DNA of 64,000 bases from Tilletiopsis washingtonensis. Lineage: Eukaryota; Basidiomycota; Exobasidiomycetes; Entylomatales. The notes beneath the pieces were generated by a model. That model was not told the origin of the DNA. It made no database searches and was given only the letters and a program-made list of their open reading frames with translations. The position numbers and the translations under genes are program-made. Of the stretch, positions 23,371 to 52,073 are shown in pieces; the stretch's first letter is position 1; each line of letters starts with the position of its first letter. The stretch lies in contig NW_020312003.1 in NCBI RefSeq assembly GCF_003144115.1, positions 62,001-126,000 on the forward strand. Direction: 5' to 3'.

Positions 23371-24350
23371 TCAGCTGAGCACCTCGACGGCTGCCACGTC
23401 CTTGCTCGAGCCCTGCAGCATGGAGAGGAAGATCGTCCAGCCGACGCCGCAGCACGAGACGAAGGGCACGCGGTAGCGCAGCGGCATGAAGCTGCGCGGC
23501 ACCGAGGTCAGAAGATGTCTCGGTGTGTGTGCGGCAACAGACGCACCGAAAGTTGATCGTCTGGATGAGCGGCCAGACCTTCCAGTTGGCCAGCAGCGCC
23601 GGCCAGTAGACCTGCGGAAAGGAAGTCAGAAGCGAGCATGCGAGACAAGCTCTGAGCGCCGCACAGCCTGGGCGACGGCGAGGCCCGTCCGCTGCAGGTA
23701 CGCCGGACATTGTGCTGGTCGCTGCTCTGTGTGCAGAGTAGCAGCGCGCATAGTTCACCACGCCTGCACTCCTGCGAGGCCGCCCGCACCACACTCATGC
23801 TGCGCCTACGCACCTCGCTGAACTTCTCGCCCAAGCCGCCCGGCCCTTGCAGTGCCCGCCCCTCGGTGACGCCCATGAAGCTCACGAAGAGCGCCAGGCC
23901 GAACGGCGCGCTGCCCGAGAGTCAGCGCAGGCGCTGCAGCGGCAGCATCACGGCCACTCACAAGGCGCCCTGGTCCACGACGACACGCTTTGCCAGGGCA
24001 CGCAGGCTGACTCTGCCCTGCGCCGCCACCTCCTTGGCCACGCCCTCACCAACGCCGCGCAGCTCGACGTGCGACGGCAGTGCCGGCGCCGCGCTGCGCA
24101 GCGGGAAGCGCAGCTCGATGAAGCGGTTCCACTCGGCCAGCAGCGGCGCCATGGCGGCGCCAAAGGCGAGGAAGCGCATGCCGCGCAGCGCATCGTAGCC
24201 GGGCGCCACGCCGGATGCCGGTGCGCCGGAGGAGAGCCCCTGTGCGAGCGAATCGGCGACGAGGGAGAGACCGCCGTTGGTGACGCCGAGGGTGACCCAG
24301 GGATGCTGTGCGAAGGAGCGCGCATAGAAGGCGCTGAGTGACGAGGTCAT
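23371..24350 (-). CDS. Mpv17/PMP22-family membrane protein (Sym1-like)
   Basis: Starts at the ATG at 24350. Exon 1 reads LSAFYARSFAQHPWVTLGVT, then NGGLSLVADSLAQGL; later come YDALRGMRFLAFGAAMAP and LLAEWNRFIELRFPL. Following short exons give VVDQGAL, FVSFMGVTEG, VYWPALLANWKVWPLIQTIN and FRFVPLRYRVPFVS; the end is GVGWTIFLSMLQG. The W-x-x-WP-x-x-Q-x-x-NF-x-x-VP-x-x-R pattern near the C-terminus is the family signature. Four hydrophobic segments are visible. Family members sit in the inner mitochondrial or peroxisomal membrane, and yeast Sym1 is needed for growth on ethanol at high temperature; the true transport or pore function is debated. It converges on the EAF-like gene. Confidence 0.87.
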
Positions 24351-24857: not shown

Positions 24858-25565
24858 ATGGCCACCGCCTTCCACTCGCACCACGCCGAGCAGCGCTGGC
24901 TGCGTGCGCCGTACACCGTTGCGCGCAAGTACACCGACAAGACGGTGCATCGCTCCGTCGACGCGCGCGTGCGTCTGTCCCCCCGTCCCTGACGCTCCAC
25001 CTCGCGCCAGGGCGCCCGCTTCTCGGTGCGCGACTATGGCCCCGACGCGCCGAACCAGCAGTCGTGGCACTGCACCTAGTGAGTGGGCATCAACGAGGAT
25101 GCAGAGTGCGCAGCGACTCACTCGTCATGTCTCACAGCCCCGACGGCACGGTGCGCCGTCTACTCGCGCACACACACCGCCTCGCAACTGACCGGATCTG
25201 CGCAGTACGCCTACTCGAACCCCTCGGGCTCCAAGTACCACGACTTCGGCCACGGCAACTCAATCTTCGTCGCCGCCGACGGCGACGTGACGCACAAGTT
25301 CAACTGGGTCGAGCAGCCCAGCAGCTTCGCGCAGAAGGCCAGCGCCAAGGCCAAGGCACTGCGTGCGGAGGACGAGAAGGCGATGCGTGAGGCGCAGGAG
25401 CGCGAGAGCCACGCGCAGGCGGTATGCAAGAAGGAGCTGGGCGTGGAGTCGGAGGGCGAGCCTCAAGGCGCCGTGGAGCACAAGTCTGCGGGAGAAGTGA
25501 AGTGTGAGGCTTCGGCAGTCGACGCAGACTCGATCGCGAGCCGCGTCAAGAAGGAGGAGCGCTGA
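24858..25565 (+). CDS. Tandem family member 1: unknown protein with NPSGS-type hairpin module
   Basis: I do not recognise this family. Four exons by splice motifs and phase: MATAFHSHHAEQRWLRAPYT and following, then ARFSVRDYGPDAPNQQSWHC, then a 13-nt exon (25138-25150) giving the YPDGT turn, then YAYSNPSGSKYHDFGHG, NSIFVAADGDVTHKF and a long helical, Glu/Lys/Ala-rich tail (AKAKALRAEDEKAMREAQER) ending SRVKKEER. About 180 residues in total. The core looks like successive beta-hairpins with DG, SG or GHG turns. There is no signal peptide and no membrane segment, so an intracellular role is likely. The tail carries two sumoylation-like sites (VKCE, VKKE). It is the first of three same-strand paralogues and the shortest. 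Base composition is nearer to its GC-rich neighbours than the other two copies. Confidence 0.72.
25138..25150 (+). other. 13-nt exon of tandem family member 1
   Basis: Preceded by a CACAG acceptor and followed by a GTGCGC donor; the following intron is 55 nt (25151-25205). Including it joins ...WHCT to YPDGTYAYSNP in frame. Skipping it puts the downstream conserved block out of frame. Confidence 0.7.
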
Positions 25566-26174
25566 GCGTTGATGAGGTGAGTGTTGCGTGCAAGTCATCT
25601 ACTCGACGTCCCTTACCCGTTTCTCTCCAAGCAGATTGGCCCGCTGGCACATCAAGGGGTCCACAGCATCGGCTCTTCAGACGGCCGCGGCCACCACTCT
25701 CTACTGTTCGCGCTCTCGCTGCCGCCCCTGTCACCGGCCCGCTTTTGTCCTGTCATCCTGCATACGAGCCGTGAGCAACCATCTGTTCGCCTGCCGACTC
25801 GATGTTGCATTCTGATGGTGTTGAGGTGAACGATCGCGTGTTGCTCCGTCTTGACGCTTCCGGATGCCGGCTCGACCCCCTTGCCTCGCCTTGCTATGCG
25901 ACACAGTGCGCGTCGCCGCACGTTGGAGCTGCGTGTTGCTCAGCGCTCCGTGCAGTTGCGTCTTCGCAGTCTTCTCTGAATGCTGCCCCTGAGCTCGCCG
26001 CGTGCGGGCGGTCTAAGCTCTGCGTCGCTCTACTCTGCATGCTTAAAGAACGTGCTCTGCGCCTCTCTTCCCCCAACGCCAGCTACCTGTCACCGCCCAC
26101 ACCTGGTGTCCATTCTGCGCCATCCCGCCACGCCCCATAGCGAACCCTCCAGTCTTGATCGCACTCACGGCACC
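25566..26174. other. Spacer between family members 1 and 2
   Basis: About 610 bp, presumably 3' UTR of the first copy and promoter of the second. More AT-rich than the rest of the window. I see no extra copy or partial copy of the hairpin module in it. Confidence 0.5.
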
Positions 26175-27260
26175 ATGTCCTCCCTGACGTCGAGAGTGAC
26201 AGACAGGTTGTTCTTTTTGAAGGCGCCTGCAGTCAAGATGCAGTTGAAGGACGACGTCGTACGTCTTCATAGCCCCGTGCAACCGCACATGTCGCGGCTC
26301 TCTGACCCTGCATGCGGTGGCTGGTCTAGAGCACCATCGAGATCTTCACCTGCGCGCCTGAAGAGCCTAATCAAAGCCCGTGGCGCAGGCAGTAGTGAGT
26401 ACAGCTGGCTGCCGAGCGCTAAGTACCACGGGAGACTGATGATGTCGACTCCCGCAGCCGCGACGGATCAGTGAGACGAGATCTTCAGCGCCGGTACTTT
26501 TCAAATCGCTGACAAAGCACGTCAGTACGCCATCTGTACGCCCAGCAACGCATACTTCTTCCACGATGGACATGGTAATCAGGTGCTCATCTTGCCGGAC
26601 GGCGTACTCGAGCGCACGGAAAGCTTCAGTCCCTGGCCGCGCTACAAGACCTTCAGCAAACTGAGCAATAAGGAGGCTTTCCTGGCTGCCAAACACGCCT
26701 GCAATCATGTGCGCGAGCTCCGCAAGAAGGAGGAAGAGCGCCTCACGATTGAGACTGTGACGCAGAAAGTGACGCAGCAAGTTCTGAGAGAAATGCCGAG
26801 GGTGCTCAAAGACTTTGAGGATCACAGACGTCTCGAGCCCCAGAAAGACGGCAGTGTAGCCGAGAAGCCGTCGCGACCAGTTCAAGTCAAGATGCAGGAG
26901 CTGGCAGCCAAGGTCGCGGTCCCGAAAAGGGCGCACCCCCTGGATCGAGGCAGCAAGGTCCAGGCCCCCGTCAAGGAGAAGAAACTCGACGCAAGCGCAT
27001 CGACCGTTCAGAGCGCCAACATGGCAGGCAAAATGGCAAGCAAGGAGGGCAGTCCACAGGTCTCTCCGGTCCAGAACGCGATCATTGGCGACAACAGTGC
27101 TCAAGCTTTCGATGCCAACAAGGAAGTCAAAGCTCTTCGCGAGGAGATGAGCGCTCTGAGCAAGCGAGTGGCGCAAGCAGAGGCGATGCACAAGCCTCGG
27201 GTCTTTCAGATCGAAGGCTTGACGATGAAGCTTCCGCCGCTGTGCTCAAGCGCGCAGTGA
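26175..27260 (+). CDS. Tandem family member 2: unknown protein, diverged copy
   Basis: Same family and same exon plan as the copies on either side. Exon 1 is MSSLTSRVTDRLFFLKAPAV to ...KDDV, with a GTACGT donor. Exon 2 gives STIEIFTCAPEEPNQSPWRR. A 13-nt exon (26458-26470) gives YRDGS. The last exon begins YAICTPSNAYFFHDGHGN, then QVLILPDGVLERTESF. The tail is longer than in copy 1 and helical (HVRELRKKEEERLTIETVTQ, then VKALREEMSALSKRVAQAEA), so probably coiled coil. Compared with copy 1, the YAYSNPSGSKY core has become YAICTPSNAYF, while W-x-x-x-Y, DG and GHGN are kept. No signal peptide. About 310 residues. Function unknown; conservation of splice phases argues that it is still expressed as protein. 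Confidence 0.7.
26458..26470 (+). other. 13-nt exon of tandem family member 2
   Basis: Lies between a CCCGCAG acceptor and a GTGAGA donor; the following intron is again 55 nt (26471-26525). It encodes the RDGS turn, aligned with PDGT of copy 1. Confidence 0.7.
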
Positions 27261-27845
27261 GCAGACCGCTCGTCCTGCCGTTGAAGACAGCCTCTCTCGC
27301 AACATGCACCGAAAGCTTGTTCCCCGTCCGGAATTCTCGCTTTGGAATCAAATCTGAGCTCGTCTCGCCTCCCACGCATTGACTCGCGTGCACAAGATCG
27401 CCGTCTGAGGTCCCAAAGCACTTGCGCTCGGCCACGAGCAAGTACGTGAGACTTCGAGAGGAGATAGCCTGCAGCTCGCTCCTTGGTCGCGCGCGTCGCT
27501 CGCTTGTCGCGCCGCGCACGGGGCGCGTCGGCACAGAACGTGCCCTATGCAGGCCGACGCCAGCCGGTTGGCCCATGCGAAGTATGCACGAGCAGCTGAA
27601 GAGTGATGTAACATTGCAGAAAGATGGAAGGTGGCTCGATGCTGAAACGAGGATGCGACAGTGACATGCGATGAGGCTGCGAGCGCGGGAGGAGAAGAGG
27701 TGTCGACACGCCGTGCCTTGGTGGCGCGCTCGGGCCGCCTCCAACAGGTACAAAAGCAGCTCTGCGTCGCGCCTAACCCCTATACGCAGTCTCACTCTTC
27801 TCTCTCTCCCCCACACTCCCATCTGCACTGCCGCACAATACGAGC
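27261..27845. other. Spacer between family members 2 and 3
   Basis: About 585 bp. Shortly before the third start codon there is a long pyrimidine run (CTCACTCTTCTCTCTCCCCC), a likely promoter or initiator. No coding signal seen. Confidence 0.5.
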
Positions 27846-28871
27846 ATGAGCACGATCTATTACGGCAACACAGAGGATGAGGACTGGGTTGATAAGCCGT
27901 ACACAATACTCATGATTCTCAAGATCGCCGAGGTGAGCATTGCGATGTCTTCGTAGGCCTCATTCGCTCAGATGCTGACGATTTGCGAAACCAGGGGGTC
28001 ATCACCGTTCGTGACTCCGGAGAGCTGGCGCCGACTCGCCCTTCTTGGCGCATAAGCTAGTGAGTTCGATCGGGCAAAAGGAGGGCGAAGGACGGAAGCA
28101 GAACTGATGCACTAGACTCTTCAGCCATAAAAAAGGATCGGTGAGCTGATGTTCGCGGCGGTCGTAGCAGCAAGCGGACTCACTGAGTTCCCTCAGTACG
28201 CCTACTTGAACCCTTCCGGGTCTCAGTACTTCAACGACGGCGAGGGCTACAGAACGTACATTTCTTCGAGGACGGACATCCACCCGGAAGGCTACGTCGA
28301 GTATCGAATTTCACGTCCGAGAGATCCAAGACGGGCCACAAGCTTCATCCGCAACGCGGCAGCTCAACGCGCTGCCAAGGTGACAGCAGCAATTGAACTC
28401 GAACTTGAGCGCCTGAGTCGTGGACGCGAGCCTGCCTCGCCCGAACATCGACAGGCAGCAGACGACCAGTCAAGCGCTTCGCGTGAGCGGATTGCGGAGC
28501 TCGAGCTCGGAGGCAACACCGGCAGCGTTCCTGTGTCTTGCGTAGGAAGTATCAGGCCGAGCAGCGAGGATGACGACAGCGCCAGCGAGGAGCGCTTCGA
28601 GCTTCTCGACGGCGCCGATGCCGCCACTTCCAGCGGCGCGACAGAGACCGAAAGCGAGGTCGTCCGACAAGTGACGGGCATTGATGACGACATCGGTCTC
28701 GTGCTGCCTCTTGCTCAAGCTGCGGAAGCTCAAGACGGCAGCGCCAACGCCAATGCCAACAACGCCGGAGCGGATGCGCGAGTGCGCGAGCTCGAGTCCG
28801 AAGTCGACGTGCTGCGTAGACGTCTGGAGGAAGTTGAGCTGCAGCTCGCGAGGGCCACGTCTCCACGGTGA
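27846..28871 (+). CDS. Tandem family member 3: unknown protein with hairpin module and coiled coil
   Basis: Third copy. Exon 1 reads MSTIYYGNTEDEDWVDKPYT and ends ILKIAE; exon 2 gives GVITVRDSGELAPTRPSWRI; a 16-nt exon (28125-28140) gives YHKKGS; the last exon begins YAYLNPSGSQYFNDGEGY. The V-R-D-x-G-x-x-A-P-x-x-x-SW block and YAY-x-NPSGS-x-Y line up well with copy 1. The middle is Ser/Glu/Asp-rich, and the last 35 residues (VRELESEVDVLRRRLEEVEL) have a leucine heptad pattern, so probably a coiled coil and possibly a dimer. About 285 residues, no signal peptide or membrane span. Function unknown. It closes the tandem array; the next gene is on the other strand. Confidence 0.72.
28125..28140 (+). 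other. 16-nt exon of tandem family member 3
   Basis: Lies between a CTTCAG acceptor and a GTGAGC donor; the following intron is 56 nt (28141-28196). One codon longer than in copies 1 and 2, so the frame is unchanged. Confidence 0.7.
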
Positions 28872-29169
28872 GTCGTACCACAACAGCAGAAGCACGCAAG
28901 ACGTGTGTCTGATCTCCGAACGAGCAGTCCACCTGCCCATCTCTAGTGCGCGCTCTCGCTGCCGCCACCTCTGTCGCGGCGCCATGACAGCAGGCTCCTT
29001 CCTTTCCGTTCTTGCTCTTCGCTCGCTCTATGGCTGCGCCCGTCTCCGACCGTACCCTTTGAGCCCATTCTGCGCCTCACGTCCTGTTCTCGAGCTAGCT
29101 GAAGAATCAAACCACCTCTCATTACTGTCGCGTCTCTATATCTTAGCCGCTGGAAGCTCGTCTCGCGCT

Positions 29170-30773
29170 CTAGTGACCGTTCTGCTTGCGCGCCGCCAGC
29201 TCCTTCTGCGAGCGTTCAGAAGCACGGCGGATCTGCCACGTCAGGTTGTACGTCTGGCGGGCGTCGACGTAGCTGCTGAGGATGGGCGAGGCCTTCTTGA
29301 TGCCGTTGCCGTTGGCGTGGCCGTTCGTAGCGCCAGCACCGTCGATGGCGGAGATTATCGCTTCGAACTCGTGCTCGAAGGGGTCGTCCTGCGGAAAGAG
29401 ATGAGCTAGGGCCAGGCAGGGACATGGAGGTCACGCACGTTGGGGAACTCGAAGATCTCTGCGGGTGCCGCGTCAGCAAGTGACCACTGACGGGCCGAAA
29501 GCTCCACTCACCGTCCTCTGACGAGCCCGGCTTGCGCACGGCCAACTTCGGCACGGGATCGTACGCGCCCTGCAGCGCGAAGCGCCAGCCGTCGGCGATG
29601 ACCTCAAGCTGTCGTCAAAAGCGTCAGCGCACATTAAAAAACCTTCGAGCGGTGCCGCACTGACCTCGGCATGATAAGGCGGGGCATGCAGTCCAACAAC
29701 ATGAATCAGGCTCGCGACCGTGCCGTCCGCGTGCTTCCAGACGGCATTGGTGACGCGCGGGATGCGGCGGTGCGGCTCGACGATGGCCTTCTCGTCGAAG
29801 CTCAGCTTCGAAACCTGGCCCGCCGGCTCGTCGTGCGTGACCGTGTGCGCAAGGATAGTCTCGGGCAGCGCGGGATTGGAGGCGCCGGCGAGGTAGCGCA
29901 GCAAGTCGACAAAGCTGGAATGCGCTTGTCAGTGTTGGGGTGAAGCAGGGAGCGGAGAGGACGTACTGCGTGCCCTGCTCGACGATCGGACCGCCGCTGA
30001 TCTCGACGTCCCACCATGCCGTCTTGACGGCCTGCTCGTATGCCATAAAGTAGCGGGCGTTGATGCACATGGGACGAAGCTGATGCTCATTCATGAGCTG
30101 CCTGTGATGATGAGTGAGCAAGCGCATGGAGCGTAAATATGCGTGGTGACACACCTCATAAGCTGGATCGGGCGGAGGTATCTGCAATGCGCTTCGTCAA
30201 TCACTGCTGAGGATGAGCAAGACAAGTGGCTCACCGGAGCATGTAGCCCACACCAACAACCTTGCCGCCCGTAGCCCAGTGCTCCAGGCGCGCCTGCACC
30301 TCGGCCGCTTCCGGCTCCGTCGTGAGCGGGTCAGCCGCAGCGACGGGCTTCTCGAGGAAGATGGCCTTTGCATGTCCGAGCGCCTTCAGCACCCGCACTT
30401 CGAGGTCGCGGCCGGGCGCCAGTGCGCCTCGGACGTGCGGCGGCGCGCCGATGAGGACGAGGTGGACCTCTTCCTTGCCGTCCTTGCGCAGCTGTTCGGC
30501 CGCCTCCTCGGGCGAGGCAGCGCAGAGCGTGTCCTGCCACGCCTGGCGCACATGCTTGTCGTCATGAGCGTGCTTGGTCGCCACGCGCGAGCGAGAGCGA
30601 GGCACGTCGGGGTCGATGAGCGCCAGCACGCGCAGGCGGGCACCGAGCAGCGTCTCGAGGCGCAGCGAGTGGTTCCAGGAGCCCTCGAGCGTGCCGAAGT
30701 GGATCTCGCCGGCGCCGAGGAAGACGACGTTGAAGGTTGCGGAGGGCTCTGCGGCGGCGGCAGTGGGCGACAT
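29170..30773 (-). CDS. Gfo/Idh/MocA-family oxidoreductase
   Basis: Starts at the ATG at 30773 (MSPTAAAAEPS). The Rossmann start NVVFLGAGEIHFGTLEG carries the nucleotide-binding turn, and AKAIFLEKPVAAADP contains the EKP motif characteristic of this family. Later exons give MCINARYFMAYEQAVKTAWW, DVEISGGPIVEQGTHFVDLL and RYLAGASNP, then IPRVTNAVWKHADGTVASLI, GWRFALQGAYDPVPKL, DDPFEHEFEAIISAIDG and a polar tail ending ARKQNGH. The order, N-terminal NAD(P) domain then a C-terminal alpha/beta domain with GGP-x-x-EQGTH-x-x-DLLRYL, is standard. Substrate unknown; relatives act on sugars, inositols or dihydrodiols. Five or six short introns are needed. No pathway partner is adjacent. Confidence 0.87.
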
Positions 30774-32441
30774 GGCGACTTGAGTGCTTGAGGTAGTGGT
30801 GGTGAGAGGCAAAGCTACGTCGATAGGACCGCTGCTCTTGTACCCGTGCGCTAGGCGTCATGCCAGCGCAGCACGGGACGTGCACGGCGGATTGACCCCT
30901 GGCAAGTGCTGCGCATCTCACGCCTTCGGACCGACATCCCGTCGTCGCCATCGGCATCGCCAGCATTCCATGCCGCTTCCGCAGCACCGGCGGATGCCAT
31001 CAGAACGGTCGGATCTGCGCTTCCGCACAAACGAGATCACATGTCGCCCCAACGTCGGCTGCGACTCGGTGCTGCTTCTCCGATGCCATCGGCCGTGCTT
31101 CGACGATGGCAACACGACCTCGTTGCCGCCCAGCGAGAGCATCGCGATCTGCGTTCCCCGCACTGTCCCCTGTGTCGTCAGGAGCGAGCCGGAGCGAGAA
31201 GTGATCGAGATACGTGCGGCCGCGCACGTATTGGAGGTCTCTCGCTGCGAAGCTTCAGCCGCGGAGGTGCTTTGTCTGGATAGGCCTCGCTGGGAGCGAT
31301 CTGGAGCGACGGACGTCGGACCGCTCGCACCCCTGAGAAGCCAGCGAGAGTGGCACCTCGCCGCGGCAAAGTGCTTCCATGGCACTCTGTGTGCCTGGGC
31401 CGAGATCTCGGCACGCTGCTCCGCTGCTCCGGCAGCACCGACGGCTCTTCGAGCTTGCGAGGGACGGAGATAGCATGATGCACTGCCTGTTCCCAGGGCA
31501 TGTCACGTGCCTAGCCGACGAGGACGTGCTCGGCGAGGGGCCTCGGAGCGGCGGGACGAGAAGGTCTCACCCGCCGCGCTTAGGACGGGCGCGCGAGGCA
31601 CGGCGGCGGGCGCGAGTTGAAAGCGAGCTCGGGCGTGGGGAAGCGTCAGGCACCGGCCAGACACTAGACTGCTCTCGTGCCGCGCCCGCGGGCAGCGTGC
31701 CATGCGAGCGGGCGTCACGCCGGCGTTTGCGGTGCGCTGCCTCGCCCCGCTGATCTGCGCACCGGCGGGCGGTCTCAGCGCTGCAAGCGTGCATGAAGCG
31801 GCCGTGCGCTCTCGAGCGCAAGCAGCGAAGCGCACGCTCGTGTACCCCGCGCTTGGAAGACTGGCCGAGTGCCGGGCAGGCGCGAAGCCGGCGCCGCGGC
31901 GTGAGAAGCTTCGTGCGGGTGACGTCGAGCGGCGAGGCGAGACGTGAGACGCTCCGCCGAGCTGCGCACCTGCAAGCCCTCTCATGTTGAGGCGAGAGGC
32001 AAATGGCAGGTGCTTGTTGTGAGCAAGCAATCGAAGACTGCGGTGCTCGAGAGACAGGTCGATTTGCGGTGCGGTGCTGGGCAGGCGTTCAGCTGGCAGC
32101 CGCGCGCCGGCGGCGACGCTGTTCGAGCTGCAGCGGGCGGCGGCGGAGCGGGCGCGCCGTGATCGCGCCGCGCGCGGCGCCGAGCTGCTTGTGCTCCGCT
32201 CGCTTCCCCTTCCCCGCTTCAGCAGCAGCAGCAGCCGCGGCCGCCAGTTGTCGCCTTCGCACCCCTCCTCTCTCCTCCTCCTCCTCTCCCGGCGCCGTCG
32301 TCCTCTCCCGCAGCCGGACCTGCCGCACCTCCAGTCCTCACTCCTTCATCCTCTGCGCTCTTCGCCGGCGCTGCCTCTCTCCCTGCACGCACCCGCCCCT
32401 CCACCTTCTGCGTCCGGCTCGCGCACTCCCGGACGTCGAGC
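30774..32441. other. Long divergent intergenic region oxidoreductase / YPP1
   Basis: About 1.7 kb between start codons. Open frames here on both strands lack conserved motifs and look like chance frames in GC-rich DNA. The last 250 bp before YPP1 hold (AGC)5 at about 32,220 and a CT-rich tract (TCCTCCTCCTCCTCTCCC near 32,272-32,290), a plausible promoter and 5' UTR. No gene supported. Confidence 0.45.
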
Positions 32442-40590: not shown

Positions 40591-43500
40591 CTATTGCACG
40601 CGCTTGCAGTCGACTGCTCGGTCAGAGTAGACATCCAGCACAAAGGTGCCCTCCACGTCGCGCTCCCACGTGCTGCACACGACGTCGTAGCTGCCGCGTT
40701 CCAGCCGTGCCTCGGCGATCGACACGCCGCACACGCCCTCGGCGTACGGGCCCGACGAGATGATCTCGCGACCGAGCGCCCGGTTCGCGGACGTGCTCGC
40801 AAAGATGGCGACGTTGAGCGCCGGGCGTGCCGCGTTTGCGCCCTCGAGCTCCGGCAGCGAGAGACGCAGCGCAAAGCGGGCCATGGGGGCCGAGACGGTG
40901 AGGCGGAAGCGCGGGTTGGCGCCGTAGCTGCCGTGTCCGGGCGCACCCGCAGCCGTGTCCTCGCTCCTCCGCCATGCGCCGCGCAGCACGCGCGAGTACA
41001 TGCCCGCGCCTTCTACGGGTAGAGTCTCGATGCGGGCGCTTGGGGTCGAAGCTTGGAGTGTGAGGACGAAGGCGCCCTGCTGTGCCGGCGCATACGTGCA
41101 CACCACGACGGTGTAAGCGCCGCCATGCGCTGGCAACGTCGCTTCGAGCACCGCTAGGCCATAGCGGAAGGCACCGCTGGATGCCAGCACCTCGTTGGCC
41201 TGCACTGAGGCACAGCGTGCGCCATTGCCGTGCACCAGCAGCACGCACACTGCCACGTCGCGAGGTGCCTCGAGTAGCAGCAGCAGCGAGGTGGCAGTCG
41301 ACCGCGCGCCGCTTGTGGCAGCTGATGCGGGCACGACGAGGCGGTATTGCGGATTGTGCACGAATGTCGCGTGCGTCGAGTTGCCTCCGGCGCTGCGGCC
41401 TCTCCACGCGCCTTCGACCTGTAACATCGAGGTCAGACGTGTCTTAGCTCCTCCTCTGCGCTGCTACTGACTCTCGTCTCGTGCGGATACGCCCGCGGCA
41501 GCTCGTGCAGCTGCAGCGGCGCATGGCCGTGCGCGGTGAGGGTGAAGGCAGCGTCGCAGGCAGGGCCGTGGCGCGAGACGACAAGCGTGTAGTTGCGCTT
41601 CTGCCGCCCGGCCCGCAGGCGCAGAAGATGGTGTGCGCTGTCTGTGTACGTGCCCTTGTCTCGCAGCGTGAGCCCACGCATGAAGGACGGCAGAGCCACG
41701 CAGACTCACCTGCTTGCCATCCACGCGCCCCTCGTACACACGCCGCTCACCCGCATTCTCGTACACGTGCAGCGCGACGTACTCTGTCTCTTCGTCGTCT
41801 CGTTTTGGCTGTGCGTCGAGATGACGCGCGAGGTGCACCCACACCTCTTCGTGGTCTCCGTCTTCACGGCCCTCGACAGTGAGGCAGTACTGCGGGTTCT
41901 GTCCGACGCTCCTCTGCACGTCGTTCGCAGACGCAGGCGTGCCGTTCTCAGCGCGCGTCGAGTGCGCCGCTCTCAGGCGAATGTGCGCTGCGAGGCTGTG
42001 CGAGAAGAGCGAGGGCTGCCAGTTGAGATAGAGCGCATCGAGCCGGTTGCACGCTTCCGTCCACGAGAGCTCGATGAGCTCCGGCTCTGACTCGAGCTCC
42101 AGCGCTGGCTCCTCGAATGAAGAGTCGAGCGCCAGTCGTGCCAGTGAGGCTTGCATGTCGGCTTGCACCGAGGTGTCGCCGTTTTGCGAAGCAGCAGCGT
42201 CGGCAGTATCGGACGTAGCCGCGTCCATTTCCTCGCGCCTTGCCGCACCTCTCCGGCTCCAGGGGTTGAGAAGCACCAGCGACCGTTCCCCTCGCTCCTC
42301 CTTCATCTCCAGAACCGCGTAGTCGTGGCTCCGGACGAGAGGCTGCACTCCGTCGCCGCGCGACTCCTTGCCGGTGCCGGCAGTGATGATGACCTCGCCT
42401 CGCTGCCAGGCGTTCCAGACGCGCGCCCACGTCTTTTCGCGCTGGAATCCGGCGTGCGAGAGCCCGATGTGCTCCGGCAGCCAGCCGGAGAGCGCGTACA
42501 GATCTGCAGCGCTGTTGGAGCCGCGGAAGTCGTAGCCCGATGCCTGGAGACGCAGGTAGGCCTTCTCGAGCAAGGAGGGCCAGAGCTGCAAGCCGCGCTC
42601 TGACACCGCTCGGGCGCACATCGGCAGTCCGGTGGGATACAGAGGCAGGGCATCATCGATGCTGATGCCGCGCGCGGCGCCGTTGATGTACATTCGCACG
42701 CGGTGCTGTCCGTCTTCAGGCGTGAGCGGCGTGCCGCTTGCGTCTTGCGGGAAGAGCGCCGAGTAGGCGATCTGCGCATGCAGATTGAGCATGGTCGCAA
42801 GCACCGCAGGGAAGGCGGCAGCTCACCTGCGTTCCCCAGCGTGCATCGTGCTCCGCCGCGGCCTCGAGCGCAGCAACGACACTGCAATCCGTCACGACAT
42901 CTTGGCGAATCTCTCTGCCCTTCAGCTTCTGCTGCGCATCTGCGACGATGACGGTCGCCGGCGCACGCACGCGCGGCTTGCCGAATGAGGCACCCAGAGC
43001 ACGCTGTGCGGCCGACAAGCTCGGCGGCGGAAGGCTGGCACTGGCGGCGGGCCAGAGAGGATAGCGATGCCCATTGATGAGCGTCGAGGCAGCTAGCACG
43101 CGCGTCTGCTCCGCTGCATGAGCGTCTTGTCAGTCGAGCACACAGAAGCGTCGCGAGCGGGCGCCACTGCGTCGCTGCCTGTATCATCGAGATCGAGCTG
43201 TCGCAGCGAGTGTGCGGCACGCTCCATGCCGAAGCATCGCATGTCCCGTGCCTCCATCACACGCGCCGCACAGAGTCGACCTGCAAGACTAGGCTCGTCC
43301 CCACCGCGCATGCGTCAGACCGACTGCTTGTGCTCCATTGATACGTTTGCACACCCCCAGCTAATGCGCAAGTCTTCGGCGCTGCTCAGGCTCTCCCGGT
43401 GCCAATCGACCTCGTGCATCTCCGCGCCGTCTGACCTCCACTCTGTCGGCCCCCGACATCTCTCCGCTCGTCCGCGCCGGCACCTCTGCAGCTCTGGCAC

Positions 43501-43779
43501 ACATCTCTCGCACTCACCCTCCTCGAGCGCGCCGCGCTCGCCGCTGCGCTTCTTGCACTCCAGCGCACGCTCCAGTGCCCGCTTGGCGCCACGCTTGGCC
43601 TCCTCTCGCGCCGCTACCGAGGCGGCAGGCGCGCGTGCGGCGTCGAGGAAGCGCTGTGCCGCTGCGGCGTAGGCGTCGCGGGCATCGGCGAATGCCTGCG
43701 CGCGCTCGTGGGCGACGCCCTGCGTGAAGAGTGCGCTGGCCGACTGCGGGTGCGAGGAGCTGCCCGCATGGCCTGACAT
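40591..43779 (-). CDS. RIM13: Calpain-like protease PalB/Rim13 with MIT domain
   Basis: Starts at the ATG at 43779. Residues 10-90 form a helical MIT-type domain (FTQGVAHERAQAFADARDAY, RFLDAARAP, RALERALECKKRS). The protease core spans later exons: the catalytic Cys in IRQDVVTDCSVVAALEAAAE, then SLLEKAYLRLQASGYDFRG, GWLPEHIGL, the catalytic His in RSHDYAVLEMKEERGERSLV and Asn in LLNPWSRRG. After the protease come two or three C2-like beta domains with NPQYCLTV, NPQYRLVVPASAATSG and NPRFRLTVSAPMARFALRL; the last strands are GSYDVVCSTWERDVEGTFVL. This is the calpain-7/PalB arrangement. Known role: ESCRT-III-recruited protease that processes PacC/Rim101 in alkaline pH signalling. It converges on REX2 with 50 bp between stops. 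Confidence 0.9.
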
Positions 43780-44305
43780 GGGCTGAGCAGGCGCCGCTGC
43801 GGCCGCGGTGCCGCGCGTGCTGCGGCGTGTCTGGACGCGGCACGGACGACAGCAAGGTACGCCGGGCGCTACCGGCCTGGGTGCAGATGGCGCAGCCGGA
43901 AGAGAGAGGAGCGGCCAGCGCCGGCTAGGGGTGCGAGTGGAGAGGAGCAAGGAGTGGCAGCAGCGAGGCCAGATGCACAGCCAACGGGCGCGCGCGGCGC
44001 CGCGCGGCGTCGGGCGCCGCAGCACCGCAAGCACCGCCGCCGCCGCGCGCTGCCCTCGCGGGCCGCAAGCGGAGCGCGCCCATGTCGTCCGCTATAGGCG
44101 ATCCGGCCCCCTTACGGCGCCTCTGGGCAGCCTCAGGTGCGACGTGAGGTGCCATGTTGCTCCGCATTAGACGGTACACACGTTCGTTTGGCGGTCAGCG
44201 TCTCCTCTGTGAGGCTTAAGATGCTCGCATCGAGCCGCCGTGGCCCCGTCATGTACATCCTCCATCGCCCGCACCTCGCTCACACCTTCCTAGACTCGCT
44301 CCAGG
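43780..44305. other. Divergent intergenic region PalB / F-box gene
   Basis: About 525 bp between start codons. The half next to PalB is GC-rich and the half next to the F-box gene is AT-richer. No other feature recognised. Confidence 0.5.
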
Positions 44306-47487: not shown

Positions 47488-50400
47488 ATGTCGCTCTCGC
47501 CCGCGCTCCCCGCGTCGCCCGCCTTCTACGCGCCGCACGCCGGCATTGCGCTGGCGAGCAGCAGCAGCGCCGCCGCCGTCGCCGTGTCGCCGCTGGTGCG
47601 CACCTACTCGGGCCGCCGCCCGCTGCGCCCGCCGCCCGCTGCGCCCGCCGCCCGTCAATGCTGCCGTGTACCGCTCGCCAGCGTCTGCCTCGGGCGGCGG
47701 CAGCGCCGGCTCCAGCCGCGCGGCTGCAGCCTACGCGGCGGCAGCCGGCGAGAAGGCCAGCGCAGCCGGCGGCAGCTCGTACTACGCCGCCAGCAGCACA
47801 TCCGGCCGCTATCCGGCCTCGCCGCGCGGCGGCAGCAGCTCCACCGAGCGTGCGGCACCGCTCTCGCCGCCGCCATCCTTTCCCATCGCATCGAGCTCGA
47901 CGCCGCCGCCCGTGCGCTACGGCACCGTCGGCACACAGACACCGCCGCCTTCGGCGCGGCGGCGTACCGGCAGTGCATCCGCCTCCAACTCGGGGCACAG
48001 TGCGCGCCGCGGCTCCGAGGCAGAGGCTGAGACATCTGCCTCCATCTCTGGGCGCAGCTCGCCCGACACGAGCGCCGAGGTGGTGCGTCTGACACGTGTC
48101 GGCGCAGGCGGGCATTCCGGCGGCGCGCGAGGCGTCGCCGGCGTGGATCCCAACAGCTTCCCATCGCCGCGCATCAACGGCGGCAGCAGCAGCGGCACCG
48201 GCTCGCACTCGCGCTCCTCGCGCGCCTCTCGCGCCGAGAGCGTGATGAGCACGGGCAGTGCGCATCTCAGCGCCGTCGTCTCGACGGCCGTGCGGCGCGT
48301 GGCCATCTCGCGGCCCGAGACGGGCGCTGCGCGGCGCGGCCCACGCGTTGGCGGCCCACCATCGCCGCAGCGGGCCGTGCCCGTGGAGCAGCGCGAGCGC
48401 TCATCACGCGGCGGCGACTGGCCCGAGGATGCGGCCGACGTGGACCGCAGACTGCTGACGCCGCGCGTCGAGAGCGGCTCGTGGGATGCCTCTGCGGCGG
48501 AGGACACGCCCGGCCGCAGTCGGCGTGAGGAGGAGAAGCAGCCGGCGCCGCGCGCAGCCGCTGCGGCAGAGAGCAGCGCGATGGCCGCTCGCAAGGCGGC
48601 ACGCGCACTGGCGCCTATTGATGTGGGCCGCTCCCTGGGGCGAGGTCCTGCGCCGAGCAGCGGCACGTCGCCCAAGCGACCATCACCGTCTGGCCGCAGC
48701 AAGTCGAACATCGAGGTGCTGCGATCCGAGGCCGAGATCAGCTCGAGCAGCCTGCTCTCGCCCGCATCGGCGCACGCGCAGCTCTCCGTCTCGCCGGCGC
48801 ACAGCAGCGCACGCCTGTCGCCCGGGCCAGCTCTCAGCACGCTCTCGCACTCGCCGCTCGGCAGTGGGCAGAGCCTGGCGGACAGTAGCTGGTCGTCGAA
48901 TGGCGGCGCCAGCATGGCCGGTGGTGGCATGCTCGGCCTCGAGTGGGGCACGTCCATCCATTCAGCGCCCGCTTCGCGCTCGCATACACGCGTTCCATCG
49001 CTCGGCACGTCGATCGGCGCACGCTCGATCCGCACGCGCACCTCAGCCGCGCCGTCCAAAATGGCGCTGCTAGACTCGCTCGACGCGTCCCTGGCGCTCG
49101 TCGATGCACAGGCATACGAGCAGCTGCCCAGCCTCGAGGCCGTCGAGGCGAGCAAGAAGGAGCTGGCCCGCCTCGAGCGCAGGATGCAGGACATGCGCCT
49201 CAAGCTCAAGGTCGAGACCCGCGTGCGTGAGGCGGCTGTCAAGCTGCGCCGCGCCGGCGCGCCGCGTCCGGGCCATAGCCGCACGCTGAGCTCTAGCTCA
49301 ACTGGACGCAAGTCGAACATGGGCTCGACCGACCTGCCGCCGACGCCGAGCACGCCCGCAGGCGTACTGCCGAGCCTCTCGTCAGACGCCGGCGCGGCAC
49401 ATCGCCAAGCCGATGAGGAAGTGGGCAGCGCAACACGCAAGGTCGACGCTGTCGCGCAAGAACTGCTCGTGCTCGTCGAGACTGCCGCGGCACGGCGGCG
49501 ACAGCTCATGGAGCACCAGGCCGGCGTGCTGGCTGCGCGCGTGCAGGAGCTCGAGTCGCTCGTGGCCGAGCGAGAGGACGGCGAAGCAGACGAGGATGCG
49601 CGACCTGACAGTCCGCGTGTGGCACTGCGCGAGGCGGCGAACGCCAACTCGCGGACTCGCGAGCTCGAGGACCAATTGTTGCAAGCCGAGACGGCGCTCA
49701 AGGAGCGGCAGGACACCGACGACGCAGCGCGCGAACGCGCAGACGAGCTGCAGCGGCGCCTGGACACGAGCGAGCGGGCGCTCGAGCTTGCGCGCGCACA
49801 GACAGAGGCACTCGGCAAGGCCAAGAGCCGCGAAGATGAGGCCGCTGTGGCGGAGCTGCAGCGCCGCCTCGATGCTGCTGATGCGCGGGCGCGCGACGCC
49901 GAAGCACGCGCTGATCGCTGGCAGACGGACGCAAAGGCGCTCTCTCAGCGCCTGGAGGAGCGCGACGCGGAGAGCACGCGCGCTCTGCGCGACCACGAGA
50001 CGCAGCTCGCCTCCGCTCGGCAAGACGCAGCAGCTGCGCAGCGTCTCGTGTCTACGCGCACGGAAGACGCCACGCGGCACGAGGCGGCGCAGAAGGCGAC
50101 TGCACTGAAGCTGCGCGACTTGGAGCTCGAGGTCGCGGCCGAGCGGCGCCTGATGCACGAGCGTGCTGAGCTCTTCGTCGCCTTTGAGCGGCGCCTCGAG
50201 AACGCCGAGCGCCGCCTGCGTGCCGAGGACGAGCGCTGCGCCCGCGTGCTAGGCAAGGACGAGGGACGCGAGGAGATGGACGACTTCTTGGCGCAGATCA
50301 AGGGCTACGGCGGGGTCAAGAAGGCCAAGACGGCAGGACAGGACATCGATGCGCTGCTCGACAGCCTGGCAGTCCACATCACTGACCTCGCAGACGAGAC

Positions 50401-52073
50401 AACGCGCCTGGCCTCGGCGCGCGGCGACGTCTCCTACGATAGCACGCAGCACGACGCAGCGGCGGCGACGCAAGTGCGCGAGCTCGAGGTGGAGCTGCAA
50501 GACACCGAGCGCGAGCTGGAGCGCTGGCGCAGCGAGGCCGAGAGTGCCAAGCGCCAGCTGGCCGCACAGCAGCGCGCCAGCGTCGCGGCCTCGTCGCGCG
50601 GAGGCGCGGAGCGCTTCTCGCGCATGCCCGAGGAGCGCGGCAACGCCCAGATGCTCGAGGAGATGGCTGTGCGGCTGGCGCTCGCCGAGAAGCGCAGCGT
50701 GGCGCTCGAGGCGGAGCTGCGCGACGCCAGCTCGCGTGTCGGCGATGCTGAGAAGGCAGCGTCAACGGACTCTGGATCCACCGGCGACAGCCCAGTCAAG
50801 GTAGCCGGCTCCGCCGATGCCGAGGCCACTGCACGTCGATTGCGCTACGCCGAGACGCAGCTCGCGCACTGTCGCGGCGCCATCACTGCGGTGCTCGAGC
50901 TCCTGCCGCCCGCGCCAGCACTGCGTGCCGCTCTGCTCGATGCGACGCGCAATGAGGAGGGCCTCGGCGCGCTGCAACGGGCCTTTGCTGCCACTGCGCG
51001 CGCGGCGCACTCGCCGCTGCTCGCCACGACGACGTCGTCGCAGCAGCTGCAGCAGCATCGCGGCTCGCTGCAGCACCGGCGCAGCATTGTGCCGCCGTAC
51101 GAGGACGCGCCGCTTGACGCCGAGGCGCTCACGGAGCGCGTCCGCGCCGTTCTTGCGGCTGGGCGCGGTGCTGCGGAACAAGCATGCGCGCTGCTCAGGG
51201 AGCGCGACGAGGCGCAACGAGAGGCACACGAGGCGCAGAACCGCGAACGAGAGCTCGGAGCTCAGCTCGAGCGCAAGAGGACCAGCCCACCGCGAAGCCC
51301 GATCGAGGCATCCCGCGGACGCGAGCGCAAGCTGTGAGTTGGACCGAGTCAGCCCTGACGATGCCACCTGACACTCTTCGGTCTTCAGCGAGGCCTCGGT
51401 TGCAGAGCTGCGCGCACAGCTGGAGTCCTACTCTCCGCGCGGCCACGCAGCCGCCAGCTCGAGCGCGGGCGAGTCGTACGTCTCGCGCGGCAGCAATAGC
51501 TCGACCGGCTCGCCGAGTGCCTCGCCGCACTCGACGTTCCTCTCGCTGCGCGATGCGCCGCCGTTGCCGTCGCACTCTGGCGGCCCCGCACACGGCACGC
51601 TGCAGATCGTCGCGTCGACGCTCTCGACGCGCACTGATCGACCCGGCGCCTCGGCCGGACGCTCATCTTCGCCTCCGGTCTCGAGCGGCTCGGTCCCGAC
51701 TACGCCGTCGACCTCCGGCTTCTCGTCGGGCCCACGCACGCTGACGCTCGGCATGGACACATCTGCGCTGGTGGCGCGGGTCCGCGATCTCGAGCGGCAG
51801 CTGGCGCGCCGCGATGTGCCGCACGCGGCCCGGCGTACAGCGGCGCGCCTCGTCGAGCTGGAGAAGACGGTGACGCAGCTGCGCGCCGAGCTGCTCGAGA
51901 CGCAGACGACGCTCGAGGAGCGCATGGACACCGACGGCCGGCAGCGCATTCAGATGCTCGAGGAGCTCAACTCGATGCAGGACGACCTGGCCAATGCGCG
52001 GGCCGCGCTGCGGGCTGAGCAGCGGCGCAAGGACAACGAGCGAGGTCTGCCGCCGGCGCTGCCAGCGAAGTAG
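47488..52073 (+). CDS. Large Ser-rich coiled-coil protein, frame apparently broken near the N-terminus
   Basis: I do not recognise the family. The best start is the ATG at 47488 (MSLSPALPASPAFYAPHAGI), in a good context. This frame stops being sensible at a perfect 16-bp tandem duplication (47616-47647), after which the main frame, about 1,200 residues, runs +1 (VNAAVYRSPASASGGGSAGS). Counting only one repeat unit would give a single continuous frame; otherwise the first usable Met would be near 48,246 (MSTGSAHLSAVV). The N-terminal third is Ser/Pro/Ala-rich and probably disordered. From about 49,050 to 51,330 there are long heptad runs (ARLERRMQDMRLKLKVETRV-like stretches, LQRRLDTSERALELARAQTE, DLELEVAAERRLMHERAELF). 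An intron near 51,337-51,388 leads to a last exon with RVRDLERQLARRD and ARLVELEKTVTQLRAELLET. Probably a cytoskeletal or polarity scaffold, by composition only. Confidence 0.66.
47616..47654. repeat. Perfect 16-bp tandem duplication
   Basis: Two identical 16-bp units (CCGCCCGCTGCGCCCG) at 47616-47631 and 47632-47647, then seven bases of a third. Sixteen is not a multiple of three, so the second unit shifts the reading frame of the coiled-coil gene. Confidence 0.9.

Follow-up and report, generated by a model that had tools for sequence, protein, structure and literature searches.

A tandem triplication of an uncharacterised gene family in Tilletiopsis washingtonensis, perhaps encoding intracellular peptide-binding adaptors

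Three consecutive plus-strand genes, at 24858-28871 of a 64,000-nucleotide stretch of Tilletiopsis washingtonensis DNA ('the window': contig NW_020312003.1, positions 62,001 to 126,000), form what we read as a tandem triplication within an uncharacterised, probably fungal, gene family. We tentatively propose, giving the reading as a whole a probability of about 0.4, that their products are intracellular proteins combining a beta-meander with helices, which perhaps act as oligomeric peptide-binding adaptors. The gene structure and homology of the three copies are, on sequence grounds, close to certain; the exon joins of all three are predictions.

The array starts exactly at the ATG of copy 1 and ends exactly at the TGA of copy 3, with each gene divided into four coding exons and with intron phases of 0, 2 and 0 in all three copies. 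Copy 1 (24858-25565; 183 aa) joins exons 24858-24968, 25011-25078, 25138-25150 and 25206-25565; copy 2 (26175-27260; 298 aa) joins 26175-26258, 26330-26394, 26458-26470 and 26526-27260; and copy 3 (27846-28871; 280 aa) joins 27846-27932, 27995-28059, 28125-28140 and 28197-28871. A short N-terminal exon (111, 84 and 87 nt in copies 1, 2 and 3, respectively) is followed by an exon of 68, 65 and 65 nt that contains SW, PW and SW, by a microexon of 13, 13 and 16 nt that codes for a DG or KG turn (PDGT at 25138-25150, RDGS at 26458-26470 and HKKGS at 28125-28140), and by a long last coding exon that opens with YAY, YAI and YAY; the common plan described in the first-pass annotation, running from the short N-terminal exon through SW/PW and the tiny turn exon to the YAY/YAI block, is thus present in every copy. 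Skipping the microexon would break the reading frame in all three.

Both splicing signals and codon usage are consistent with these models. A CTNAY branch point sits 17-28 nt from the 3' end in 11 of the 11 proposed introns, as against a mean of 1.22 and a maximum of 5 of 11 when intron interiors are shuffled, and is present in 70 of the 398 plus-strand GT...AG spans of 42-71 nt in the window. Nine of these introns, those between coding exons, had been set by frame and alignment before any look at branch points; the other two, at 3' ends, were placed only after the sequence had been inspected. By a codon score whose training set was frames elsewhere in the window at least about 1 kb long, the annotated frame beats the other five in every joined coding sequence, with 1 to 13 stops in the five that it beats.

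That the three genes descend from a common ancestor is indicated by local alignment scores of 118 (copies 1 and 2), 157 (copies 1 and 3) and 89 (copies 2 and 3), where the highest scores among 2000 shuffles per pair are 63, 59 and 73; every pair outscores all 2000, whether the whole proteins or only the isolated modules are aligned. Taken with the shared intron phases, this significant homology places the genes in a single family of tandem paralogues and bears out the original description of a same-strand array of diverged copies, with copy 2 the most drifted in the core. A comparison of the spliced copy 1 protein with the window, translated unspliced in six frames as 1241 stretches, recovered exon 4 of copy 3 at E 6.9e-5 and that of copy 2 at E 0.007; at the start of exon 4, copies 1 and 3 are 75% identical over a 57-nt stretch. 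No fourth copy was found in the window, the best stretch outside the array scoring E 0.75 with a three-module profile run with filters off (the matches of this profile to its own copies arise by construction, since it was built from them).

The duplicated unit may extend past the stop codon, as judged from sequence features downstream of copies 1 and 3. Just beyond the stop of copy 1 lies a probable intron in the 3' untranslated region (25577-25634, plus strand; GTGAGT...CAG, with a branch-like CTTAC), and copy 3 has a possible fourth intron (28868-28927, plus strand) whose GTGAGT donor overlaps the TGA, such that an alternative last exon at 28928-28946 could give the ending SPRPPAHL and a TAG stop at 28944-28946. 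The stop of copy 2 has donor-like sequence, in our judgement without a convincing acceptor. In addition, a 21-nt repeat downstream of copy 1 (25706-25726, plus strand) is 95% identical to one downstream of copy 3 (28946-28966, plus strand); its 18-nt core, with two mismatches allowed, occurs at these two sites only in the window, and as many matches were seen in 1 of 100 shuffles, for a pattern that was chosen after being seen.

Library searches agree with the earlier remark that no named family with this layout is known. Whole proteins searched against Pfam-A at E<=10 reached no family above its curated cut-off, and the isolated modules and their consensus likewise gave only matches below cut-off: none for the copy 1 module, Tcp10_C for copy 2 (E 0.19), Chitin_bind_4 for copy 3 (E 0.016) and aRib for the consensus (E 0.13). 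The Chitin_bind_4 (insect cuticle) match, made by the copy 3 module only, stands at 15.9 bits against a cut-off of 25 bits. We attribute to chance the aRib match, Pfam matches of the whole proteins to various families, coiled-coil ones among them (best E 0.023), matches (E 0.029 to 1.8) of the three-copy profile to antibody chains, ribosomal protein eL43 and PDCD10, matches to two PHROG families of unknown function by one member of the three (E 0.013 and 0.14), and a structural match (E 0.31, probability 0.99) to a MORN-repeat model of a Pandoravirus in BFVD.

Phage records held no relative at the thresholds used, their matches being E 0.2 or worse and taken as chance; pattern-matched stretches in viral contigs and prokaryotic genome contigs were in no case confirmed by tblastn at E<=1e-3, and coded-motif scans of viral contigs gave no match. 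These viral, phage and prokaryotic collections say little about distribution in fungi, in which comparable YxNPDGSxY motifs probably occur in hypothetical proteins. No title listed by the literature searches deals with the gene family, and peptide-string searches, one of them with a string from copy 1, found no paper.

Structure prediction was carried out with AlphaFold2 on exon 4 only, with copies 1 and 3 as targets and an alignment of three rows. For copy 1 (25206-25562, plus strand), four strands are predicted at exon residues 2-4, 10-15, 18-22 and 28-31 (protein residues 66-68, 74-79, 82-86 and 92-95), followed by a helix at 41-83 (protein residues 105-147); block means of the predicted local distance difference test (pLDDT) are 90, 89 and 91 over the first 30 residues and 64 over the next 10, with a mean of 70.5 and a predicted template-modelling score (pTM) of 0.29 for the whole model. 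The copy 3 model (mean pLDDT 56.9, pTM 0.21) has three strands at low confidence (block means 49, 51 and 42) and helices at 44-74, 82-105 and, at the C-terminus, 181-221, the last with block means of 55, 87, 95 and 91, of which the final three cover exon residues 191-220. Good heptad windows, by a simple home-made score, lie at residues 245-272 of copy 2 and 248-275 of copy 3. The first-pass annotation had foreseen a beta block leading into a helical or coiled-coil tail, and had called for structure prediction as a check; this holds for the four strands and helix of copy 1 and for the well-predicted helices of copy 3, and is left in doubt for the weakly predicted strands of the latter. Queried with the copy 1 model, Foldseek gave no match at E<=0.001 in either the Protein Data Bank (best E 0.34, the third polo box, PB3, of PLK4) or BFVD (best E 0.26).

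Synthesising these observations, we propose a speculative model for the three proteins. An N-terminal antiparallel beta-meander, with strands that probably continue upstream of exon 4, would have PDG, NPSG, GxG and DG turns linking its strands and would carry aromatics (W..Y and YAY, for example); an alpha-helical segment would follow, which in copies 2 and 3 would lead on, through a long linker, to a coiled coil at the C-terminus. We suggest that the aromatic face of this small sheet might bind a short peptide of a partner, that the helices or coiled coil might oligomerise the protein or dock it, and that the overall role could be that of an intracellular adaptor. The proposal of an intracellular, oligomeric, peptide-binding adaptor is suggested by the lack of an evident N-terminal signal, the small sheet rich in aromatics, and the helical or coiled-coil tails; by hydropathy only, the N-terminus is not hydrophobic in copies 1 and 2, and copy 3 has just an internal hydrophobic stretch from residue 20. 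Several points weigh against this model: confident strands are predicted in copy 1 alone, those of copy 3 having low pLDDT; the heptad window of copy 1 is weak; and the pTM values are low, the alignment had three rows and the models cover exon 4 alone.

An alternative that we consider unlikely is that copies 2 and 3 are relaxed duplicates with little function, and that copy 1 alone is well used. The GC content of third codon positions (GC3) is 0.90 in copy 1, 0.72 in copy 2 and 0.65 in copy 3, such that codon bias is weaker in the latter two, as this account would have it. Across the window, which is GC-rich, GC content ranges from 0.585 to 0.725 in 2-kb bins, and the lowest bin (26001-28000, 0.585) spans copy 2 and the beginning of copy 3, which points the same way. 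Against it, both copies retain long open frames, splice sites, branch points and C-terminal coiled-coil-like helices. More ambitious, and plainly unlikely in our estimation, is a reading in which an undescribed fungal peptide-binding beta-meander joined to coiled coils would have its first conserved turn encoded by an obligatory 13-16 nt microexon, the tandem copies having diverged so as to bind different peptides of partners.

It is very unlikely, we think, that these are partner-facing proteins under diversifying selection, as had been surmised from the strong divergence of tandem copies that kept their exon phases. Counting by the NG86 method over a 35-codon core (with one copy 3 codon, the microexon insertion, removed) gave nonsynonymous (dN) and synonymous (dS) divergences of 0.621 and 1.136 for copies 1 and 2 (dN/dS 0.55), 0.565 and 0.702 for copies 1 and 3 (0.80), and 0.769 and 1.178 for copies 2 and 3 (0.65). 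The ratio is therefore below 1 in all three pairs, albeit with dS (0.70-1.18) near saturation, and the claim of selection for diversification was not upheld; the weaker codon bias of copies 2 and 3 also fits relaxed constraint. Relaxed constraint after duplication is the simpler reading, and would account for the divergence equally well.

There is also a slim chance that the proteins are diverged relatives of the TCP domain (Tcp10_C, or G-box) of CPAP/SAS-4, a single-layer beta-meander whose target is a proline-rich motif. As described in PMC3776556, the meander of this domain has one layer and PDG turns, binds a short motif in STIL and recognises a target motif containing proline. Of the six matches of copy 1, five are CPAP/SAS-4 chains, the best at E 0.019; a hand-made three-copy consensus matches CPAP/SAS-4 at E 9e-6 (five of its eight matches at E<=10), a result that was reproduced on repeat; and copy 2 gives the Pfam Tcp10_C match at E 0.19 already mentioned. 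Glycine pairs nine residues apart number three in copy 1 (reached in 0.001 of shuffles), two in copy 3 (0.03) and one in copy 2 (0.19), these fractions being uncorrected for the 13 spacings examined. CPAP is absent from the 18 matches of a strand-shuffled control and from the 3 matches of the reversed copy 1 module, so strand residues do matter for the match between consensus and CPAP.

On the other side, a single query with its turns preserved and its strands shuffled matches beta-repeat proteins, both designed and natural, with E-values as low as 4.4e-11; values of this order result when short matches to turns add up along the repeats, and are hence no evidence of descent. Single-stretch scores for CPAP reach 7.5 bits at most, and neither copies 2 and 3 nor the three-copy profile (A1) finds a CPAP chain at E<=10. 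In Pfam, Tcp10_C (PF07202) is not matched by copies 1 or 3 or by the consensus, and the 11.8 bits of copy 2, the best score, compare with a cut-off of 36 bits. Moreover, a TCP domain is a freestanding meander of about 20 strands, where the model of copy 1 exon 4 predicts four strands and then a helix; the 64 residues upstream of exon 4 leave no room for the other 16 strands. We have set this lead aside as unproven.

A polo-box-like fold, in which several antiparallel strands are closed by a helix to bind peptides, has an equally slender prospect: the meander-then-helix architecture fits, and polo-box chains of PLK4 and PLK1 appear repeatedly among the matches listed (50 of 445 from Foldseek), with PLK4 PB3 first (probability 0.89), but no E-value is better than 0.34, rmsd (root-mean-square deviation) is at least 12 A among the polo-box matches listed, Pfam gives no polo-box match, Tudor, propeller and MORN-type sheets match about equally well in Foldseek, and the copy 1 model behind the match lacks exons 1-3.

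Around the array, an exon at 23964-24347 on the minus strand, divergent from copy 1, shows a motif-level likeness to the N-terminus of Mpv17/PMP22-type proteins (Pfam, no match at E<=0.01). Tail-to-tail with copy 3 are minus-strand exons of a GFO/IDH/MocA-type oxidoreductase (29476-30788; PF01408, PF08635). Further away lie a calpain-type protease with Calpain_III domains and a sub-threshold MIT match upstream (40594-43839, minus strand), a domain set like that of Rim13/PalB, and an uninterrupted frame of 1241 codons with a Uds1 (septation) domain (47612-51334, plus strand). The Uds1 gene and the shortness of the introns would fit a fungal, perhaps basidiomycete, source.

As it stands, the array is a well-supported yet ordinary tandem set of uncharacterised genes, with no sign of an extraordinary function. 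Should the domain prove real and general, it would be a new small interaction module for fungal proteomes and a convenient example of a folded domain that contains an obligatory microexon. A practical lesson is that a turn-preserving control should accompany E-values obtained against beta-repeat proteins.

Finally, we compare the proteins with three known systems. The succession of a W, a turn, YxY-x-N, a second turn and an aromatic strand resembles the WW domain (PF00397); unlike that domain, the copies are predicted to carry further strands and a helix after the WW-like stretch, and Pfam gave no WW match up to E 10, in a search whose HMMER filters drop most weak matches. The bicycle genes of aphids, as described in PMC9168663, are likewise highly diverged genes whose relatives can be found via gene structure; they differ in being an insect family implicated in galls, and there is no hint of a common origin. 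With the TCP domain of CPAP/SAS-4 (PMC3776556), the shared feature is a turn-rich antiparallel meander with PDG turns, built there from about 20 strands and, in exon 4 of copy 1, from a predicted four.

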